A stretch of DNA of 40,127 nucleotides from a virus. The notes under the pieces are model-generated. The model ran no database searches. It saw only the letters and a list, made by a program, of their open reading frames with translations, and was not told the origin of the DNA. Positions 1,813-31,763 of the stretch are shown in pieces. A program made the translations under genes and the position numbers. The DNA is taken from the IMG/VR virus record IMGVR_UViG_3300028556_000023, positions 1 through 40,127 of that record; one strand, 5' to 3'. The number at the start of each line of letters is the position of its first letter. Positions within the stretch are counted from its first letter, which is position 1.

Positions 1813-2595
1813 ATGTTTGATAGTAATGAAAGCTTTCAGTTGAAACAGGAAAAAGGTTTATCAGTGGTCCAAGAACCACCAGCCGAAGAAACTCTCCAGC
1901 AAACCGAAGCAGCTGAAGTAGAACCGGTAGATATTCCCCTCGCACAAGAATCTACCGCTTCAGCTTCTTCTAAAGAACCTGCCGATAGTTTCCGTGAGCT
2001 ACGTGAAAAAGCTGATCGTGCAGCACGCGAGCGTGATGAGCTCTTAAGCATTGTGAAAGAATTTAAACAACAGAATGTTACTGCGCAACCTTCGGAGCCA
2101 GAAGATTACGATCTTAATTTGAAGCCTGATGACCTTGCTGAGGGTAAACACTTAACCAAGGTTCAAAAAGAGATTAAGAAGCTTAAAGAAGAGCTTAATA
2201 CCTACAAAAAACAATCTTATGAGTCTATAGTAGAAGCTAAGCTTAAATCTAACTACAATGATTTTGATAAGGTTGTTAACCCTGATACTATACGCTCATT
2301 AAGTTCTATATACCCTGAGCTTGCAGCTACTCTTAACTCTTCAGCAGATTTATATAATAAAGCTGTATCTGCGTATACAATGATTAAGAAGTTAGGAATT
2401 TACCAAGAGGATATTTACATGGCTGATAAGAAAAAAGTACAAGAGAACGCCGCTAAACCAAAAACACTCTCATCTATTTCACCACAGCAAGCAGAAAGCC
2501 CACTATCCAAAGTAAATGCATTTGCTAATGGATTAACACCAGAACTGCAAAAACAATTACGTAGAGAGATGGAAGAGGCTAGAAAGGCTATATGA
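1813..2595 (+). CDS. Capsid assembly scaffolding protein
   Basis: 260 aa. It has the usual build of a phage scaffold: an acidic, low-complexity Glu/Pro/Ala-rich N-terminus (residues 10-55), a long charged coiled coil (about 58-140, FRELREKADRAARERDELL), a helical middle, and a short basic C-terminal helix (QLRREMEEARKAI) of the kind that contacts the coat protein. It is the last head gene before the major capsid gene, which is where scaffolds normally sit. Scaffolds line the inside of the procapsid and leave before or during packaging. Here it is unusually separated from the coat gene by four small accessory genes and a terminator. Start follows AGGAGAAAA. Confidence 0.8.
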   Translation: MFDSNESFQLKQEKGLSVVQEPPAEETLQQTEAAEVEPVDIPLAQESTASASSKEPADSFRELREKADRAARERDELLSIVKEFKQQNVTAQPSEPEDYDLNLKPDDLAEGKHLTKVQKEIKKLKEELNTYKKQSYESIVEAKLKSNYNDFDKVVNPDTIRSLSSIYPELAATLNSSADLYNKAVSAYTMIKKLGIYQEDIYMADKKKVQENAAKPKTLSSISPQQAESPLSKVNAFANGLTPELQKQLRREMEEARKAI

Positions 2596-2798
2596 GTTTA
2601 AAGCAATGCCGTGGATGTCAAAAAGATTTTGAGTTTCTAACGCTTGTGGGAAATGATGAATGTTATCCTAAAATACCATATTTAGTTTTATGTGATAAAT
2701 GTGTAGAGGGATGGCTTAAAATATGTGAAAAACATCATAATAATTTATATATAGAATTAAATAATTTTATTCATCCTAAGCCTCCCAATATAGAGTAA
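2592..2798 (+). CDS. Small zinc-ribbon-like protein
   Basis: 68 aa. Two cysteine pairs (CRGC near residue 6 and CDKC near 36) are spaced like a treble-clef or rubredoxin knuckle. The rest is helical. ATG overlaps the scaffold stop (ATGA). It resembles in layout the protein encoded in intron 1 of the capsid gene (CTKC ... CKPC). Function unknown. Confidence 0.65.
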   Translation: MSLKQCRGCQKDFEFLTLVGNDECYPKIPYLVLCDKCVEGWLKICEKHHNNLYIELNNFIHPKPPNIE

Positions 2799-2810
2799 TG
2801 GATCATCCAA

Positions 2811-3209
2811 ATGGAAAGAGATAAATTCTTTGTAAGCAAGTTATTAAAGCTTCCTGTGCCTATTTTAAAATTCAATAGGAAAAATAATGAGTGGGGTTTG
2901 CATAGATGTTCATGTGAGCCTTTATGTTCTAACGATAACATTAAATCTTCTAAACCATGGATATCTTTTGGGGAGAAAAAACCTCCCGTTAATTGTGGAT
3001 TATTGATAATAATTGATGATAATAACGATGAGGATCCTTGGAATGTTAGAGATCAACTGTTTTATGGGTTTATGTGGCCTCATGAATATATTTATATAAC
3101 ATTGAATATTACTGAGAATGTTAGAATGGGATGGAAAGCACATAAAGAGTTTGATTTGAAAGATATATATTGGTTTAATGGAATAGAATGTGGATCGCCC
3201 AATATGTAA
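2811..3209 (+). CDS. Divergent DUF551-like protein
   Basis: 132 aa. The C-terminal 85 residues follow the DUF551 pattern: a Trp-Ile start with a PP pair (PWISFGEKKPPVNCGLLIII), a central YG strand, and the closing YW motif (LKDIYWFNGIE). The N-terminal 45 residues hold a CSCEPLC cysteine cluster that is not part of the family. DUF551 proteins are small phage and prophage proteins of unknown function. Relatives here lie in two capsid-gene introns and in the early region. Assignment is by pattern only. Confidence 0.5.
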   Translation: MERDKFFVSKLLKLPVPILKFNRKNNEWGLHRCSCEPLCSNDNIKSSKPWISFGEKKPPVNCGLLIIIDDNNDEDPWNVRDQLFYGFMWPHEYIYITLNITENVRMGWKAHKEFDLKDIYWFNGIECGSPNM

Positions 3210-3636: not shown

Positions 3637-3652
3637 AATTTATCGGCGCAAC

Positions 3653-3726
3653 TGAGTCTCGCCAGCTCATTCTGACGAAAATTGAGTCTCGTCAACTCAG
3701 TGACGTACGTAAGTCTCGTCAACTTA
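3653..3726 (+). promoter_or_regulatory. Three tandem covarying hairpins in the capsid mRNA leader
   Basis: Three 17-nt units at 3653-3669, 3683-3699 and 3710-3726. Each is a 5-bp stem around the loop CTCGYCA. Stems are TGAGT/GCTCA, TGAGT/ACTCA and TAAGT/ACTTA. The paired bases change together (A-T, G-T) while the loop stays, so they are RNA or DNA structural elements and not chance repeats. They end 40 bases before the capsid start. Possible roles are mRNA stability, coat-protein binding or translational control. Confidence 0.7.
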
Positions 3727-3766: not shown

Positions 3767-6700
3767 ATGTCTATAACGACTACATCAACGCTTCCGGCTC
3801 CGGTCCAGCAAAGTTTTAGTTATAAATTACTTTCGGTACCAGTGCCAAATATGATTCATAAAATCCCTGCGATGAAGAAGAACATGCCTAGAAACGGCGG
3901 TACAACTCTTCGTATGAGACGATAAAATTATGTCGTCTTTAAATCTTCTCTGATAGACTTGGAAGCCTTAGCGTAAAGACGAAGGTAACAAGGGGCAAGA
4001 ATGAAAAAAAACGTAAACTGTACGAAATGTAATATTGAATTAAAATTAAAAGATGGAAATTTCATGGAAGCAATAGATAGTTCTGGATATCTTTGTAAGC
4101 CATGTTTTGCAAATCTTAATAAATATTTACACGAATGCTATTTACAATTCATTCAGCCTGAACGTAGCAAGCGAGAAGACTTAGATTGTAAAGAATGTGA
4201 AAGAATCAAGGAGAACGTATATTCTCAAATATGTACTCATTGCGATATCGATCAATATCTTGATGAATCTAAGATGCGGTGCTCTGAACATTGTGGAAAC
4301 ACAGTGAGGGAAGTGCAATAAACTTCCTCGCTCTTCATTTCCCGAAGAAATGAAGAGTCATAAAAGTAACAGATTTGATAATCCCTTAGCAACAGCTATG
4401 GTTCCACTAGGAAATAGCGGAGTAACACCTCCACCACAAAACCTAACAGCTGTGGATAAACACTATGTCCACATTAAATCTTCTCTGATAGACTTGGAAG
4501 CCTAAACGTAAAGTCGTAGGTAACAAGGGGCAAGATTATGAAATGGATAAAAACATCAGATAAATTACCAACATTATATAAATCAGTTCTTATTTATGGA
4601 AATGGCATTAATAATGCAATGGATATAGGTTGGTTATTTAATAATGATGGAAAAATAGAATGGACGACAGAAGAATATTTTATTCCTACTCATTGGATGT
4701 TATTACCAGAGATTCCTAATCAGCCTGAACGTAGCAAGCGAGAAGACTTAGATTGTGAAAAATGCAAAGATATTAAAAAAGGAATTGAATGGGAATGCCC
4801 TTCAAGATTTATTGATTATCTTGATCAATCTAAGATGCGGTGCTCTGAACATTGTGGAAACACAGTGAGGGAAGCTCAATAAACTTCCTCGCCTAAAGAA
4901 ATTTAGAGGTAACAATAACGGGATTAGCCGCGTACTATTACAGCGCCGTTAACGAGTGCATTTGGAGAAATCCATAAAGTCTACTGACATCGTTGCCAGG
5001 CACCTGTGAGTTACCTTCAAAAAACTAGGTCACAAAAGTAACAGATAGATAGATGCCAAGCTCAGTTTTTATGGCACATACGTGACCATCAACGAGCAGG
5101 TTAATGATAGCCTGCTTTAAATCAGCCCTAATTGAGGTGGAAGTCCTATTAAATAGGATGACACTGCGCAAGGTGACTGAATTATAAGGATTAACGAATA
5201 TGAAGAGATTTCATTTTATGAAACAAAGAATAACGAAGTTCAAGAACCTCCTGCTCAATAGGTTGGGTTCCTTGTTGACCTTTTCGCATTCTTGTTTTTT
5301 CAAAAGTATCTCTCATTTGAATCATAACTTTTGCTTGTTCAATCTTGATTACAAGATAAGGAATCATTATTTCACACAAATGCTTAACTCGATCAGAATG
5401 TGCTGTCCAGCGATAAACAGCTTTACGAGAATTTTTAGGGGTTTGTTTAGCAGAATAATGCTGCAACCTTCCTCCAAAATTATCGACAAGCCAATTTATC
5501 AACGAAATATCTGTAGAACTTACTTGCATAGTTGTGTGAAAATGTGGAGTTCCTGTTTTAGGATTTTTGGCATAGGCGCCTATAAGAAAAGCTCCTTCTC
5601 CGTCCATAATTCCTGCAAGATAAGCAATTTGAGCAATGGTATATTCTTTACGTACATATTTGCTAATCATATAATATCCTTTACGATTAATAGTCATACA
5701 CTAGTTTATCGTAAATTAAAGCCAGCGTAAACGACTAAAGCGGGTAGACACCATAAGGTGAAGCGATAGTCTGAACTCTATGGAAACATAGAGAGGGAGA
5801 TCCGAAGAGGTTTCCCCGCCTCGTAAGAGGTCACAAAAGTAACAGATTGTACCTTGCAGAACCAAGATCCAGTATTAAACGAATGTGCGGCTCGACTTGG
5901 AGTTTCACTTCGTCAAACAGAAGATCAACTTACACGTGATATGTTAGCCTCAACAGCTAGCTTTATTAACTGTACAGGTGGTGTAAACGGTGATAACCCA
6001 ACAGAAATCACACGCTCTGATGTTGATACAGTTGTAAGAACATTATTAGGTAATAATGCTTACACGATAAAAATTGTCGTGTCTAAATCTTCTCTGATAG
6101 ACTTGGAAGCCGTAGTACAAGCGTAACCGGTAACAAGGGGCAAGATTATGAAATGGCGTTCAATAGAAGAAGAACCTAAATTAAATCAATTATTATATCT
6201 TTGTGATAGAAATGGTTTTATACATAAAGGATGTTTAATTGAAAAATCTACAGGGATTCCGGGTAAAATAGGAAAATATTGGCAAATATTTCAAGATACT
6301 TCTTTTGGAAATATAGAACACTGGGAAATATTTGTATCATATGATATTTGTAGATTTAATTGGGTTCTTGTAGAAGAAATGCCTTTACCTAATCAGCCTG
6401 AACGTAGCAAGCGAGAAGACTTAGATTGTTGTAAAAAGTTAAAAAAATTAGAATATCTTCGCCAAATAATAATCGATGAAAATATTGATTGTGGAGAATG
6501 GCATAACGACTATGCAGATATAGTTGAAATTTTTAATGAACTTATACAAGAATCTAAGATGCGGTGCTCTGAACATTGTGGAAACACAGTGAGGGATAAG
6601 TAGAGAAAGTCCCCGCTCTTCATTTCCCAAAGAAATGAAGAGTCACCAAAGTAACAGATTTGAATGGATAACATCGAGGGTGAAGATAAGTTTGGTACAG

Positions 6701-7101
6701 CGCCAGTTCGTGATGCTTACTTTGCATTATGTTCAACTCAACTAACAGGTAACTTGGATAACGTACAAGGCTTTATCCAAAAGAACCAATACCCAGCTCC
6801 TATGAACGCTCTTAGAAGCGAATGGGGTGCTATTGGTAACCTAAGATTCCTAATATCATCCATTGGTTCTATTTCTGCTAATGCTTCTGCATTAGGAGCA
6901 GATATATACAATATCTTCTGTGTTGGTATGGAAGCTTATGCATGTATTGAACAAGATGGATACAGCGCAACCTTTATATATCGTCCACCAATCTATGATG
7001 GCCCATTAGCTCTTAATGCTTCTGTTGGATATAAATTCGCAGAAGTTCCAAGAATTACTAATGATCAATGGGTAATCAATTTAAGAGCTACATTAGCTTA
7101 A
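3767..7101 (+). CDS. Major capsid protein (N4-gp56 family), five exons split by four group I introns
   Basis: Exons: 3767-3923, 4378-4457, 5049-5101, 5850-6068, 6663-7101; joined 948 nt, 315 aa. Start ATG has AAGGAG five bases upstream. Joined junctions read MRR-YNPLATAMVPLG, TAVD-IDAKLSFYGTY, INEQV-TLQNQDPVL and NAYTI-MDNIEGEDKFG. This is the conserved order of N4-gp56-type coat proteins: TLR.RRYNPL, the GVTP loop, YGTY, NQDPVL, RQTEDQLTRDML, NGDNPTEIT, then GEDKFGTAPVRDAYFA. The coat protein forms the icosahedral shell. All four introns lie in the N-terminal 170 codons, in the most conserved blocks. Without splicing the first exon stops after 52 codons (CGA TAA). No intact coat gene lies elsewhere in the window. 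Confidence 0.93.
3924..4377 (+). ncRNA. Group I intron 1 of the capsid gene
   Basis: 454 nt. P1: exon end AGACGAU (3917-3923) pairs with GUCGUCU (3932-3938), with the diagnostic terminal U.G at the splice site. P10: intron AUUAU (3927-3931) pairs with exon 2 ATAAT (4378-4382). P7: AGCA (4166-4169) with TGCT (4280-4283). P8: CTTAGATT (4180-4187) with AATCTAAG (4266-4273). P9: CATTGTG-GAAA-CACAGTG (4289-4306), a GNRA-capped stem. A distal hairpin CTCTTCATTTC/GAAATGAAGAG lies at 4331-4357. The intron ends AACAGATTTG with the terminal G at 4377. Confidence 0.9.
4001..4321 (+). CDS. Zinc-ribbon-like protein encoded in intron 1, read through the ribozyme core
   Basis: 106 aa. The N-terminal part has CTKC (about residues 7-10) and CKPC (about 31-34), like the small protein at 2592. 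From residue 52 the peptide (QPERSKREDLDC) is the translation of P7/P8, and residues 89-103 (SKMRCSEHCGNTVRE) of P8/P7/P9. The same peptides end the proteins in introns 2 and 4. A segment with CKECERIKE and CTHC sits in the P8 loop. It is not a homing endonuclease. AGGGG stands five bases before ATG. Translation could only come from unspliced RNA or free intron. Function unknown. Confidence 0.65.
   Translation: MKKNVNCTKCNIELKLKDGNFMEAIDSSGYLCKPCFANLNKYLHECYLQFIQPERSKREDLDCKECERIKENVYSQICTHCDIDQYLDESKMRCSEHCGNTVREVQ
4458..5048 (+). ncRNA. Group I intron 2 of the capsid gene
   Basis: 591 nt. P1: TGTGGAU pairs with GUCCACA (4467-4473), with terminal U.G. P10: CTAT (4463-4466) with exon 3 ATAG (5049-5052). 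It shares with introns 1 and 4 a 28-nt block after P1 (4475-4502), a 36-nt P7/P8 block (4721-4756) and a 46-nt P8/P7/P9 block (4827-4872). An extra 150 nt after P9 (about 4885-5030) holds further stems, for example AACGG/CCGTT enclosing CGC/GCG, consistent with a P9 extension. Ends AACAGATAG, with G at 5048. Confidence 0.88.
4538..4882 (+). CDS. DUF551-like protein encoded in intron 2, read through the ribozyme core
   Basis: 114 aa. Residues 1-62 match the DUF551 pattern from end to end: MKWIKTSDKLP, a VLIYG strand, a GW turn, then THWMLLPEIPNQ. The rest is encoded by the ribozyme core: QPERSKREDLDC (P7/P8), a P8-loop segment with CEKCKDIKK, and SKMRCSEHCGNTVREAQ (P8/P7/P9). The domain is therefore inserted in the loop that normally hosts homing endonucleases. 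AAGGGG lies nine bases before ATG. DUF551 has no known biochemical role; the intron location is, as far as I know, unreported. Confidence 0.75.
   Translation: MKWIKTSDKLPTLYKSVLIYGNGINNAMDIGWLFNNDGKIEWTTEEYFIPTHWMLLPEIPNQPERSKREDLDCEKCKDIKKGIEWECPSRFIDYLDQSKMRCSEHCGNTVREAQ
5102..5849 (+). ncRNA. Group I intron 3 of the capsid gene
   Basis: 748 nt. P1: AGCAGGU (5095-5101) pairs with GCCUGCU (5110-5116), with terminal U.G; P10 is weak (2 bp). P7: GACTA (5733-5737) with TAGTC (5767-5771). P8: CACC-ATAA-GGTG (5749-5760). P9: CTCTATG-GAAA-CATAGAG (5776-5793). A CCTC-GTAA-GAGG hairpin lies near the 3' end. Ends AACAGATTG, with G at 5849. Its core sequence differs from introns 1, 2 and 4 but keeps the same element order, including AAGCG between P7 and P8 and TGAAC after P7. 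The endonuclease fills 5191-5670 on the other strand. Confidence 0.9.
5191..5670 (-). CDS. LAGLIDADG homing endonuclease, antisense within intron 3
   Basis: 159 aa from ATG 5670, which has AAGGA seven bases upstream; ATG 5697 is an in-frame alternative without such a site. One dodecapeptide motif, AYLAGIMDGEGAF, is near residue 15, carrying the acidic metal-binding residue. One motif and this length are typical of homodimeric I-CreI-type enzymes, which cut intronless alleles to spread the intron. The C-terminus is a long basic helix. It is coded against the capsid transcript, so it needs its own promoter and cannot be made from the capsid mRNA. It is the only recognisable endonuclease in the four introns. 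Confidence 0.88.
   Translation of the reverse strand: MISKYVRKEYTIAQIAYLAGIMDGEGAFLIGAYAKNPKTGTPHFHTTMQVSSTDISLINWLVDNFGGRLQHYSAKQTPKNSRKAVYRWTAHSDRVKHLCEIMIPYLVIKIEQAKVMIQMRDTFEKTRMRKGQQGTQPIEQEVLELRYSLFHKMKSLHIR
6069..6662 (+). ncRNA. Group I intron 4 of the capsid gene
   Basis: 594 nt. P1: ACACGAU (6062-6068) pairs with GUCGUGU (6076-6082), with terminal U.G. P10: AUU (6073-6075) with exon 5 AAT. Core blocks at 6084-6111, 6394-6429 and 6551-6596 are nearly identical to those of introns 1 and 2. The distal hairpin CTCTTCATTTC/GAAATGAAGAG (6616-6642) matches intron 1 with only its loop changed. Ends AACAGATTTG, with G at 6662. Confidence 0.9.
6148..6603 (+). CDS. DUF551-like protein encoded in intron 4, read through the ribozyme core
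   Basis: 151 aa. Residues 1-83 look like a DUF551 domain: MKWRSIEEEPKLNQLLYLCD, a central KGC strand, W residues, then FNWVLVEEMPLPNQ. Then QPERSKREDLDC from P7/P8, a 41-residue helical P8-loop segment (LKKLEYLRQII, IVEIFNELIQE), and SKMRCSEHCGNTVRDK from P8/P7/P9. AAGGGG lies nine bases before ATG, as in intron 2. The P8-loop part is longer than in introns 1 and 2, so that loop accepts variable inserts. Function unknown. Confidence 0.7.
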   Translation: MKWRSIEEEPKLNQLLYLCDRNGFIHKGCLIEKSTGIPGKIGKYWQIFQDTSFGNIEHWEIFVSYDICRFNWVLVEEMPLPNQPERSKREDLDCCKKLKKLEYLRQIIIDENIDCGEWHNDYADIVEIFNELIQESKMRCSEHCGNTVRDK

Positions 7102-21226: not shown

Positions 21227-22552
21227 ATGGCGTATAAAAGAAAATCTCCGATGCCCGTAATAGAGGGCGGAACGGGTGATCAATCCCTAACCTCCTATGC
21301 AGTTCTATGCGGGGGTATTACTACAACCAGTCCTATACAATCAGTTGTAGGGACAGGAACCCTAGGGCAAGTGCTCACCTCTAATGGTGCAGCCCTCCTA
21401 CCCACCTGGCAACCTGGAGGTGGGGGCGGTAGTGGTATAACCACCCTTGATGGTAATACAGGCTCAGCGACTGGAGCAACGGTGACCATAAGTGGAACTG
21501 AAGGCTCTACTGTATTTACAGGCTCAGGCGCAGCCCTAACTCTCAGTTACACTTATCTTACCCAAAATACTTATGTGGGGAATTCTGCTGGAAACGTAGG
21601 AACCTCGACTGGAAGCTACAACTCGGGTTTTGGATGGCATGCTCTTGATACCCTAACTGGAGGGAATTTTAATTGTGCTCTAGGCCGATTTGCTCTTGGT
21701 GGAGGAATCACTGGAGGTGCTGGCGATTTTAACACTGGAGTTGGTTACTTTGCAGGCCAGGGCAATAGTGGTTCTCATAACTCTACAATAGGAGCCGTTG
21801 CTTTTGGATCTAATAATACAACAGGCTCGGACAATTGCTGCATTGGTTATAATACTGGATCGCTCTATAATAGCGCAGAATCTAGCAATATTTTGATTGG
21901 ATCTTCGGTAACTGGAACCACTGGTGAGAGCAATGTGCTTAGAATAGGCTCAGCAACTGGTACTGGGACTGCTCAAATTAATACTGCGTACATTGCTGGT
22001 ATTAATGGCAATACCGTAAGCAATACCCAAATGGTTACAATAAATTCTTCTACTAACCAATTAGGAACTGCTACTATACCAGCGGGACCATTTACAACAC
22101 AATTTTTTGCCTATAATCCCACTGCTAGTATTGCTAATGCGACAGGAGATGGTACTTTTGTTACGTCATCAGTAATGACTAGCACTCTTTTTAATAATGG
22201 AAGTGCATATAATACTGGAACTGGAGTATTTACAGCCCCTGCTACTGGTCTTTATTATTTTACAGTATCTTTTGCATTCGACAATATCACCTCTGCTCAC
22301 ACCTTATTTCAAATGATATTAGTAACGACTGGTCATACTTATGGTCTTCAAATTGGTAATCCATTTGCTGCAGGAGGTAATAATTCGGGAGACATCCAAT
22401 ATTTCGCTAATACTAGTGTGTTAGTTCCAATGACTTCTGGGGATACTGCTTCAGCAAGAGCTAACATAGCTAATGGTGCTAAAACCGTTAACCTTGATGG
22501 AACAGGAGCAGGAGCCCTTGCAACATATTTTAGTGGATTTAGAGTAGCTTAA
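21227..22552 (+). CDS. Tail spike/fibre with YadA-like head repeats and a C1q-like tip
   Basis: 441 aa. Residues 1-75 hold a short motif shared by fibres (GGTGDQSLTSYAVLCGG). Residues about 120-235 carry repeats of the N-x-x-(I/L)G-x-x-A type (NFNCALGRFALGG, HNSTIGAVAFG, SDNCCIGYNTG), as in trimeric adhesin heads. Residues about 300-441 match the C1q/TNF fold: FAYNPT, FNNGSAYNTGTGVFTAPATG, LYYFTVSFAF, and a final strand. C1q-like domains trimerise and bind surface ligands, so this is a good receptor-binding candidate. Confidence 0.7.
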   Translation: MAYKRKSPMPVIEGGTGDQSLTSYAVLCGGITTTSPIQSVVGTGTLGQVLTSNGAALLPTWQPGGGGGSGITTLDGNTGSATGATVTISGTEGSTVFTGSGAALTLSYTYLTQNTYVGNSAGNVGTSTGSYNSGFGWHALDTLTGGNFNCALGRFALGGGITGGAGDFNTGVGYFAGQGNSGSHNSTIGAVAFGSNNTTGSDNCCIGYNTGSLYNSAESSNILIGSSVTGTTGESNVLRIGSATGTGTAQINTAYIAGINGNTVSNTQMVTINSSTNQLGTATIPAGPFTTQFFAYNPTASIANATGDGTFVTSSVMTSTLFNNGSAYNTGTGVFTAPATGLYYFTVSFAFDNITSAHTLFQMILVTTGHTYGLQIGNPFAAGGNNSGDIQYFANTSVLVPMTSGDTASARANIANGAKTVNLDGTGAGALATYFSGFRVA

Positions 22553-31321: not shown

Positions 31322-31530
31322 CCTGGATATCAGTAAAAGACAAAGAGATACCCCTAGATACAGATGTGCTTGTATGGGCGAATGGATATTATTGGGTAAT
31401 AATCTTACGCAAAGATGAGAAAGAAGTAGATCTGGGATGTGGGTGCTATAATGGTGGAGAGGTAGAATTAGAAGAAATAAAATACTGGGCGGAATTACCG
31501 CCTAAACTTTCAAAGAGGATTTATCTATGA
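31318..31530 (+). CDS. DUF551-like protein, GTG start
   Basis: 70 aa: MTWISVKDKEIPLDTDVLVW, ANGYYWVII, then VELEEIKYWAELPPK. The GTG at 31318 overlaps the upstream TGA (GTGA) and gives the family WISVKD start, so it is chosen over any later codon. Confidence 0.65.
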   Translation: MTWISVKDKEIPLDTDVLVWANGYYWVIILRKDEKEVDLGCGCYNGGEVELEEIKYWAELPPKLSKRIYL

Positions 31531-31763
31531 AATGGATTAGTATTAAAGAACCACCCACAGATAATAATAATAATGGTGACGCATATGATTGTGTATTATT
31601 ATTTAATTCTTATAACAAAAGCATAGCTTTCGGACAGTACTTAGAAGGGGAATGGGTACTATTGAGTGATGGAGTTTATTCTGATGTAGGAACTATAGGA
31701 ACAGACTTAGAAAACATTACTCATTGGATGCCATTACCCCAATACCCCAGAAGAGGAAGTTAA
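31527..31763 (+). CDS. DUF551 protein
   Basis: 78 aa: MKWISIKEPPTDNNNNGDAY, a CVLLF strand, FGQYLEGEWV, then LENITHWMPLPQYP, the canonical ending. ATG overlaps the previous stop. Confidence 0.78.
   Translation: MKWISIKEPPTDNNNNGDAYDCVLLFNSYNKSIAFGQYLEGEWVLLSDGVYSDVGTIGTDLENITHWMPLPQYPRRGS

Follow-up and report, generated by a model that had tools for sequence, protein, structure and literature searches.

Can a viral shell gene that is cut into five pieces still specify a capsid, and what are the insertions that cut it? The question is raised by positions 3767 to 7101 of the window, by which we mean the complete 40,127-nt stretch of viral DNA that was analysed (IMG/VR record IMGVR_UViG_3300028556_000023), where an initial annotation, made without database searches, had placed a coat gene interrupted by four group I introns. 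This claim was supported as the best reading: the capsid gene very likely carries four group I introns that splice to yield the capsid protein, where splicing is inferred, there being no transcript, splicing or protein data.

The joined capsid gene and its product

A spliced alignment placed the exons, all on the plus strand, at 3767..3923 (exon 1, residues 1-52 and the first base of codon 53), 4378..4457 (exon 2), 5049..5101 (exon 3), 5850..6068 (exon 4) and 6663..7101 (exon 5 with the stop codon), and excision of the intervening 3924-4377, 4458-5048, 5102-5849 and 6069-6662 left a single 948-nt frame of 315 amino acids plus stop. The five segments, the four insertions and the single 315-aa frame of the initial annotation therefore held, both by direct joining and by a separate spliced protein-to-DNA alignment that returned the same eight exon/intron boundaries. 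The aligner scored the capsid profile, P1 and the 3' motif and required a terminal G; its acceptor bonus was initially tuned to AACAGAT, so that independent backing for the intron ends comes from the protein join and from P10. The ends of the window introns were set by the protein join, independently of the terminal-G rule. As an example, the sequence at an exon junction reads ...GAGACGAT/ATAATCCC... (slash at the junction), and the peptide predicted to span one of the junctions is RRYNPL.

The joined product matched PHROG 1357 (major head protein, 1.1e-32) and scored 26.5 bits against Pfam Phage_capsid_4, slightly below the cut-off of 27; the N4-gp56 family assignment that had been proposed is thus only roughly right. 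A scan of viral contigs yielded 563 capsid relatives, among which uninterrupted 315-aa frames were at most 95% identical. In the alignment to homologues the joined capsid matched intact ones end to end, the residues at all four junctions agreed with intact relatives (nearby substitutions were only scattered), and comparison of the exons with five intact relatives gave a pN/pS of 0.10-0.13. The exact restoration of a conserved frame is thereby shown. A second intact coat gene being the one in use would have refuted the initial annotation; no second capsid copy occurs anywhere in the window record, so that this objection does not apply here.

Two side observations concern the same gene. Just 5' of it, at 3650-3726, lie three imperfect 20-nt direct repeats of the AACTGAGTCTCGCCAGCTCA type, with spacings of 30 and 27. 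Two related records hold a second capsid-like gene that is ~30% identical to the interrupted one and ~9-13 kb away from it, at 15666-16025 in L108 and, here also in separated pieces, at 21237-21614 and 23573-23746 in L124.

Anatomy of the four introns

The core helices were located in the window introns, all of which lie on the plus strand. Intron 1 (3924..4377, site 53.1, 454 nt) has P1 AGACGAU/GUCGUCU, P3 3944-3950/4173-4179, the P4-P6 strand CAAGGGGC at 3989-3996 with P6' at 4156-4160, P7 4164-4169/4279-4284, P8 4180-4187/4266-4273, P9 4289-4295/4300-4306 and a P10 of 5 bp. Intron 2 (4458..5048, site 80.0, 591 nt) has P1 TGTGGAU/GUCCACA, P3 4479-4485/4740-4746, CAAGGGGC at 4524-4531, P7 4731-4736/4840-4845, P8 4747-4755/4826-4834, P9 4850-4856/4861-4867 and a P10 of 4 bp. 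Intron 4 (6069..6662, site 170.2, 594 nt) has P1 ACACGAU/GUCGUGU, P3 6088-6094/6413-6419, CAAGGGGC at 6134-6141, P7 6404-6409/6564-6569, P8 6420-6428/6551-6558, P9 6574-6580/6585-6591 and a P10 of 3 bp. Intron 3 (5102..5849, site 97.2, 748 nt) belongs to the other P7 subtype (CGACTA 5732-5737 / ATAGTC 5766-5771); its P1 is AGCAGGU/GCCUGCU, P5 is at 5143-5149/5153-5159, P8 at 5749-5752/5757-5760 and P9 at 5776-5782/5787-5793, its P3 is weak and its P10 has only 2 bp.

This anatomy is shown, and it bears out three earlier claims: 7-bp guides, each P1 ending in U.G at the splice site, were found in all four introns; P10 was confirmed in introns 1, 2 and 4, with intron 3 weak; and the insertions end in G after AACAGAT, more precisely as AACAGAT(N)G with the terminal G in 4/4. 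When the first 60 intron bases were shuffled, the observed P1 was matched in 48, 152, 25 and 44 of 20,000 shuffles for introns 1 to 4, respectively. Separately, a 131-nt stretch close to the 3' end of intron 2 (4905-5035), present among the loci compared only in the window phage and its near-twin L101, appears as a composite or inserted segment; it follows an earlier motif, AGAGGTAACAATAACG, that resembles an intron 3' end and stands ~130 nt ahead of the true one.

Group I assignment through ORF-less relatives

The proposed Rfam covariance search was negative for the window itself: RF00028 gave no match there, neither at the gathering level nor at E up to 5, because the inserted ORFs split the ribozyme core. 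The group I status of the window introns consequently rests on their relatives. A 17-base core motif common to introns 1, 2 and 4 was found in at least 119 viral contigs, nearly every time inside or adjoining an interrupted capsid gene, and many of the related capsid introns are short (188-235 nt) and without ORF. One of these (L098), the only relative with an RF00028 match, scored 35.3 bits (E 1.2e-5), which is below the gathering score of 50.

We aligned 49 ORF-less capsid introns of relatives and folded them de novo with RNAalifold, which recovered P1, P3, P4, P5, P6, P8 and P9, with compensatory change in 32/34 pairs. P7 was added separately, since RNAalifold cannot predict the pseudoknot, and with its inclusion 36 of the 40 pairs changed on both sides; P1 covaried in 5/5 pairs. 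Of the cells assigned to pairs in this alignment 96% were paired, versus 71% after shuffling and ~43% after sliding. The guanosine-site G-C next to the bulge in P7 (columns 140-190) was present in 48 of the 49 introns, and P7 changed in concert between subtypes (ACTA/TAGT versus AGCA/TGCT). Covariation is thus shown. P10 averaged 3.14 pairs versus 1.05 with shuffled 3' exons. In every one of the four window introns, a covariance model built from the 49 relatives, with zero window sequence (R1), matched the 5' half as well as the 3' half, at E values between 2.5e-7 and 1.4e-29 (for intron 3, 5' half 1.1e-10 and 3' half 1.4e-29).

Recurrence within the clade

The clade-wide recurrence of these introns, and the non-endonuclease ORFs overlapping the ribozyme that are described below, had been overlooked by the initial annotation. 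When phages were sampled through the gene that follows the capsid gene, by its similarity and independently of introns, 45 of 54 full-length capsid genes were found to be interrupted; once near-duplicates had been removed, the count was 36 of 43, or 33 by the strict criterion, and a single gene held as many as five introns (six at most in a less strict count). Over all loci we obtained 288 well-supported distinct introns, 90 of which have an empty-site allele (≤3 mismatches over 28 nt), a point that is shown; with P1 ≥5, introns occupied 82 positions, 45 of them recurrent. Within 42 whole records, 140 of the 145 model matches fell in or beside the capsid gene and the other five ~7 kb upstream, where in the two cases inspected an intron lies close to the start of a portal-like gene. 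As the 42 records were partly picked for capsid introns, this ratio describes intron-bearing phages. We conclude that, in a little-known environmental clade of ~40 kb phages, one ribozyme lineage has its hotspot in the capsid gene.

Beyond the clade, it is again virion genes that harbour the other P7 subtype (portal, tape measure and the capsids of other families). ORF-less introns of the same lineage were observed in portal, tape measure and other capsid genes of L258, L267, L309, L281, L280, L231, L218 and others, and the lineage thus seems to favour late virion genes generally. Genome contigs gave only three matches, all from metagenome bins that belong to unrelated groups; a host assignment based on them was rejected, the three contigs probably being mis-binned viral ones.

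The shell gene presumably needs very high output, yet most copies in the clade rely on one to five self-splicing events, which makes the efficiency of splicing and the reason for the tolerance of introns directly testable. Capsid genes in metagenomes can evidently be fragmented, and thereby under-counted as markers.

ORFs in loop L6

Among the window introns only intron 3 contains an endonuclease gene, a LAGLIDADG homing endonuclease ORF of 168 aa that lies antisense in L6 (5191..5697, minus strand; PF00961, 2.9e-5; PHROG 5046, 1.5e-24). LAGLIDADG was likewise found in 19 of 28 long ORFs of related introns, and an intron ORF at site 173.0 of L143 (10662-11132) is recombination endonuclease VII-like, a possible further endonuclease type.

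Introns 1, 2 and 4 had no endonuclease profile in Pfam or PHROGs. Each holds in L6 a plus-strand ORF, hereafter cargo: i) 106 aa in intron 1 (4001..4321), with a four-cysteine zinc-ribbon-like domain at ~aa 1-52 and a ribozyme-encoded tail, QPERSKRED...MRCSEHCGNTVREVQ; ii) 114 aa in intron 2 (4538..4882), with DUF551 (PF04448, 1.7e-8) and a ribozyme-encoded tail; and iii) 151 aa in intron 4 (6148..6603), with a DUF551-like pattern (MKW..P..HW) recognised by alignment only, again with such a tail. For two of the window cargo proteins, the predicted structure was confident in the N-terminal domain and of low confidence in the tail (for intron 1, pLDDT 72-93 and 50-62), and fold searches with the two models gave no significant match. 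DUF551 is a portable domain of phage and prophage proteins (PMC10834534).

Related capsid introns of ~300-600 nt similarly contain a 60-150-aa ORF in L6. In a sample of 100 introns with an L6 insert of 100-500 nt (core stops excluded from the count), the longest AUG-open stretch kept to one frame with respect to the core (CAG CCT GAA CG) in 96, and the first AUG, usually 2-4 nt past GGGGCAA, was open throughout in 90. The frame runs on across the ribozyme and gives the tails QPERSKRED...MRCSEHCGNTVR or QPERLSEKT. The core variant AAGGGG occurred in 100/107 cargo introns versus 24/74 ORF-less ones, a comparison that is uncorrected for the relatedness of introns. By class, the cargo was DUF551-like or four-cysteine, with many singletons besides; Pfam matches were limited to a few of the cargo ORFs, and about half were without detectable homologue. 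A pN/pS of 0.18-0.65 was obtained in 7 of the 8 cargo pairs compared, with several families below 0.5, and the remaining close pair gave 1.47 on very few changes. Free-standing relatives are encoded in the window itself, all on the plus strand: at 31527..31763 (64% over 75 aa with the cargo of the L322 intron at capsid site 13.0), at 2811..3209 (39% over 80 aa with the cargo of the L351 intron at site 145.0) and at 2592..2798 (a protein with four cysteines, alignable with the cargo group of intron 1).

We also observed variable coding sequence that enlarges the loop of P8 in introns 1, 2 and 4 (4180-4273, 4747-4834 and 6420-6558), which gives their cargo ORFs a second variable stretch (L8) in addition to L6, between constant ribozyme-encoded ones.

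On balance we lean towards the short cargo ORFs being real translated genes, by a modest margin and with translation inferred. A bolder reading, which we consider slightly more likely to fail than to hold, is that the ribozyme lineage serves as a gene-cassette platform, in which unrelated genes in L6 would be expressed from the capsid mRNA, the core would provide a start signal and an in-frame C-terminal tail, and folding would switch between capsid (spliced) and cargo (unspliced). Were it true, the introns would be retained for their cargo besides being selfish. The slot also brings to light putative small accessory proteins, which may have been overlooked or wrongly annotated by gene callers.

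Proposed mechanism and exchange of introns

In the mechanism that we propose, each intron would excise itself from the late mRNA: the end of the 5' exon would pair with the internal guide (P1, U.G) and be attacked by the guanosine bound in P7, after which the 3' exon, positioned by P10 and the omega-G, would be joined. Many introns would hold a small accessory gene in L6, for which the ribozyme strand AAGGGGC(AAG) would act as a Shine-Dalgarno-like sequence just upstream of the AUG, and whose frame would continue across P6', P7, P3', P8 and P9 into the common tail. Since AAGGGG lies within P4 and P6 of the folded ribozyme, translation of the cargo and splicing are inferred to be mutually exclusive for each RNA molecule.

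The cargo seems to derive from free-standing phage genes by capture and may be swapped between introns by recombination in the shared core, the guide remaining matched to its site; both steps are inferred. LAGLIDADG-bearing introns such as intron 3 could provide homing. Same-site introns of different phages shared cargo above 0.8 identity in only 1 of 249 pairs. Introns within a single gene can have identical or near-identical cores yet differ in guides and cargo (L124, L154); those of L124 at 82.0 and 182.0, for example, have identical cores, and the cores of window introns 1, 2 and 4, compared in the near-twin L101, were 93-96% identical. Near-identical cores within one gene were in excess by a small number only, and core identity as a whole showed no significant within-gene shift. 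We infer that the data are better explained by DNA recombination in the shared core with a local guide than by reverse splicing in which the guide is unchanged.

Alternative explanations

It remains possible that these are ordinary selfish group I introns, with short ORFs that are decaying remains of homing endonucleases or chance frames without product. In favour of this are the true LAGLIDADG genes of related introns (19 of 28 long ORFs), the endonuclease VII-like ORF, the top fold match of the zinc-ribbon model, which was T4 endonuclease VII although non-significant (E=0.27), and the scarcity of Pfam matches among cargo ORFs. Against it stand the fixed frame (96/100), the constant spacing of the first AUG, from which the frame is open in 90/100, the enrichment of the AAGGGG start motif among cargo introns, the several cargo families with pN/pS <0.5 and free-standing phage homologues, and the fact that DUF551 is not an endonuclease family.

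A second alternative, in which introns reached new sites by reverse-splicing into capsid mRNA, an abundant target, and were then reverse transcribed, we consider unlikely. It would suit the expectation that capsid mRNA is the most abundant late transcript, the close intron relatives at many sites within one gene and the preference of the lineage for late structural genes in other phages too. However, the cross-site guide pairing of close relatives (3.71 pairs) had no excess over the background (3.69), and near-identical cores have different guides and cargo, so that this alternative is already weakened.

That the gene is a broken pseudogene and a different capsid gene is in use is very improbable: two related records do have a second, ~30% identical capsid-like gene, but the window record has none, the exons are under strong purifying selection (pN/pS ~0.10), every junction restores the frame and most of the clade is in the same state. 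Inteins, group II introns and translational bypass elements also interrupt reading frames but can be all but dismissed, as inteins are excluded by stops and frame changes within the insertions, the conserved elements are those of group I (P1, P3-P9, P7, U.G, omega-G), and 454-748 nt with a ribozyme core is unlike a bypass gap.

Comparison with known systems

Four introns in a coat gene had been called exceptional by the initial annotation, which needs qualification, as multiple introns in capsid genes, and also single ones (LittleE, Tuc2009; PMC3706429), have been published. What appears to be undescribed is a clade-wide hotspot with an in-frame cargo slot, for which splicing and cargo translation are inferred from sequence. 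Neither a clade with the capsid gene as recurrent intron target nor a shared in-frame cargo slot was found in the open-access literature searched, which leaves subscription papers uncovered.

The major capsid ORF of a crAss-like phage (Zeta group) is in five fragments (Yutin et al. 2021, PMC7886860), with group I features in 3 of the 4 intervening segments, and is as such similar to that of the window. It differs in being a single example from a large gut phage with introns and inteins across many genes, without cargo ORFs or a shared in-frame slot in the relevant sections of that paper, whereas the clade of the window consists of ~40 kb phages in which the capsid gene is the near-exclusive intron target. 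The major capsid gene of Faustovirus E12 likewise has 12 introns, five of them group I, but in a giant virus of amoebae, with mixed intron types and GIY-YIG endonucleases (PMC6247863). Mycobacteriophage LittleE has a self-splicing capsid intron, probably of group I, for which splicing was shown by RT-PCR and which carries a bottom-strand LAGLIDADG ORF, as does window intron 3; it differs in being one intron, in another phage and capsid gene, without accessory cargo (PMC3706429).

With respect to the cargo, homing endonuclease ORFs that overlap group I cores are known (PMC2988022, PMC3073962), and rps3 of fungal mitochondria is a non-endonuclease gene within a group I intron, a case that is also cited in PMC3073962. 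The closest parallel is T4 td/I-TevI, where the ORF is in a peripheral loop, its RBS is sequestered in RNA structure, translation opposes splicing, and the 3' end of the ORF overlaps the ribozyme ('core creep'). I-TevI is an endonuclease, however, and overlaps the core by only 20 nt (6 aa) (PMC2988022, PMC3073962), whereas the cargo of the window clade is not a recognised endonuclease, is different in almost every intron and, with few exceptions, reads through the core's 3' half in a single frame; the in-frame slot makes core creep a testable question, as it offers dozens of captures that arose independently.
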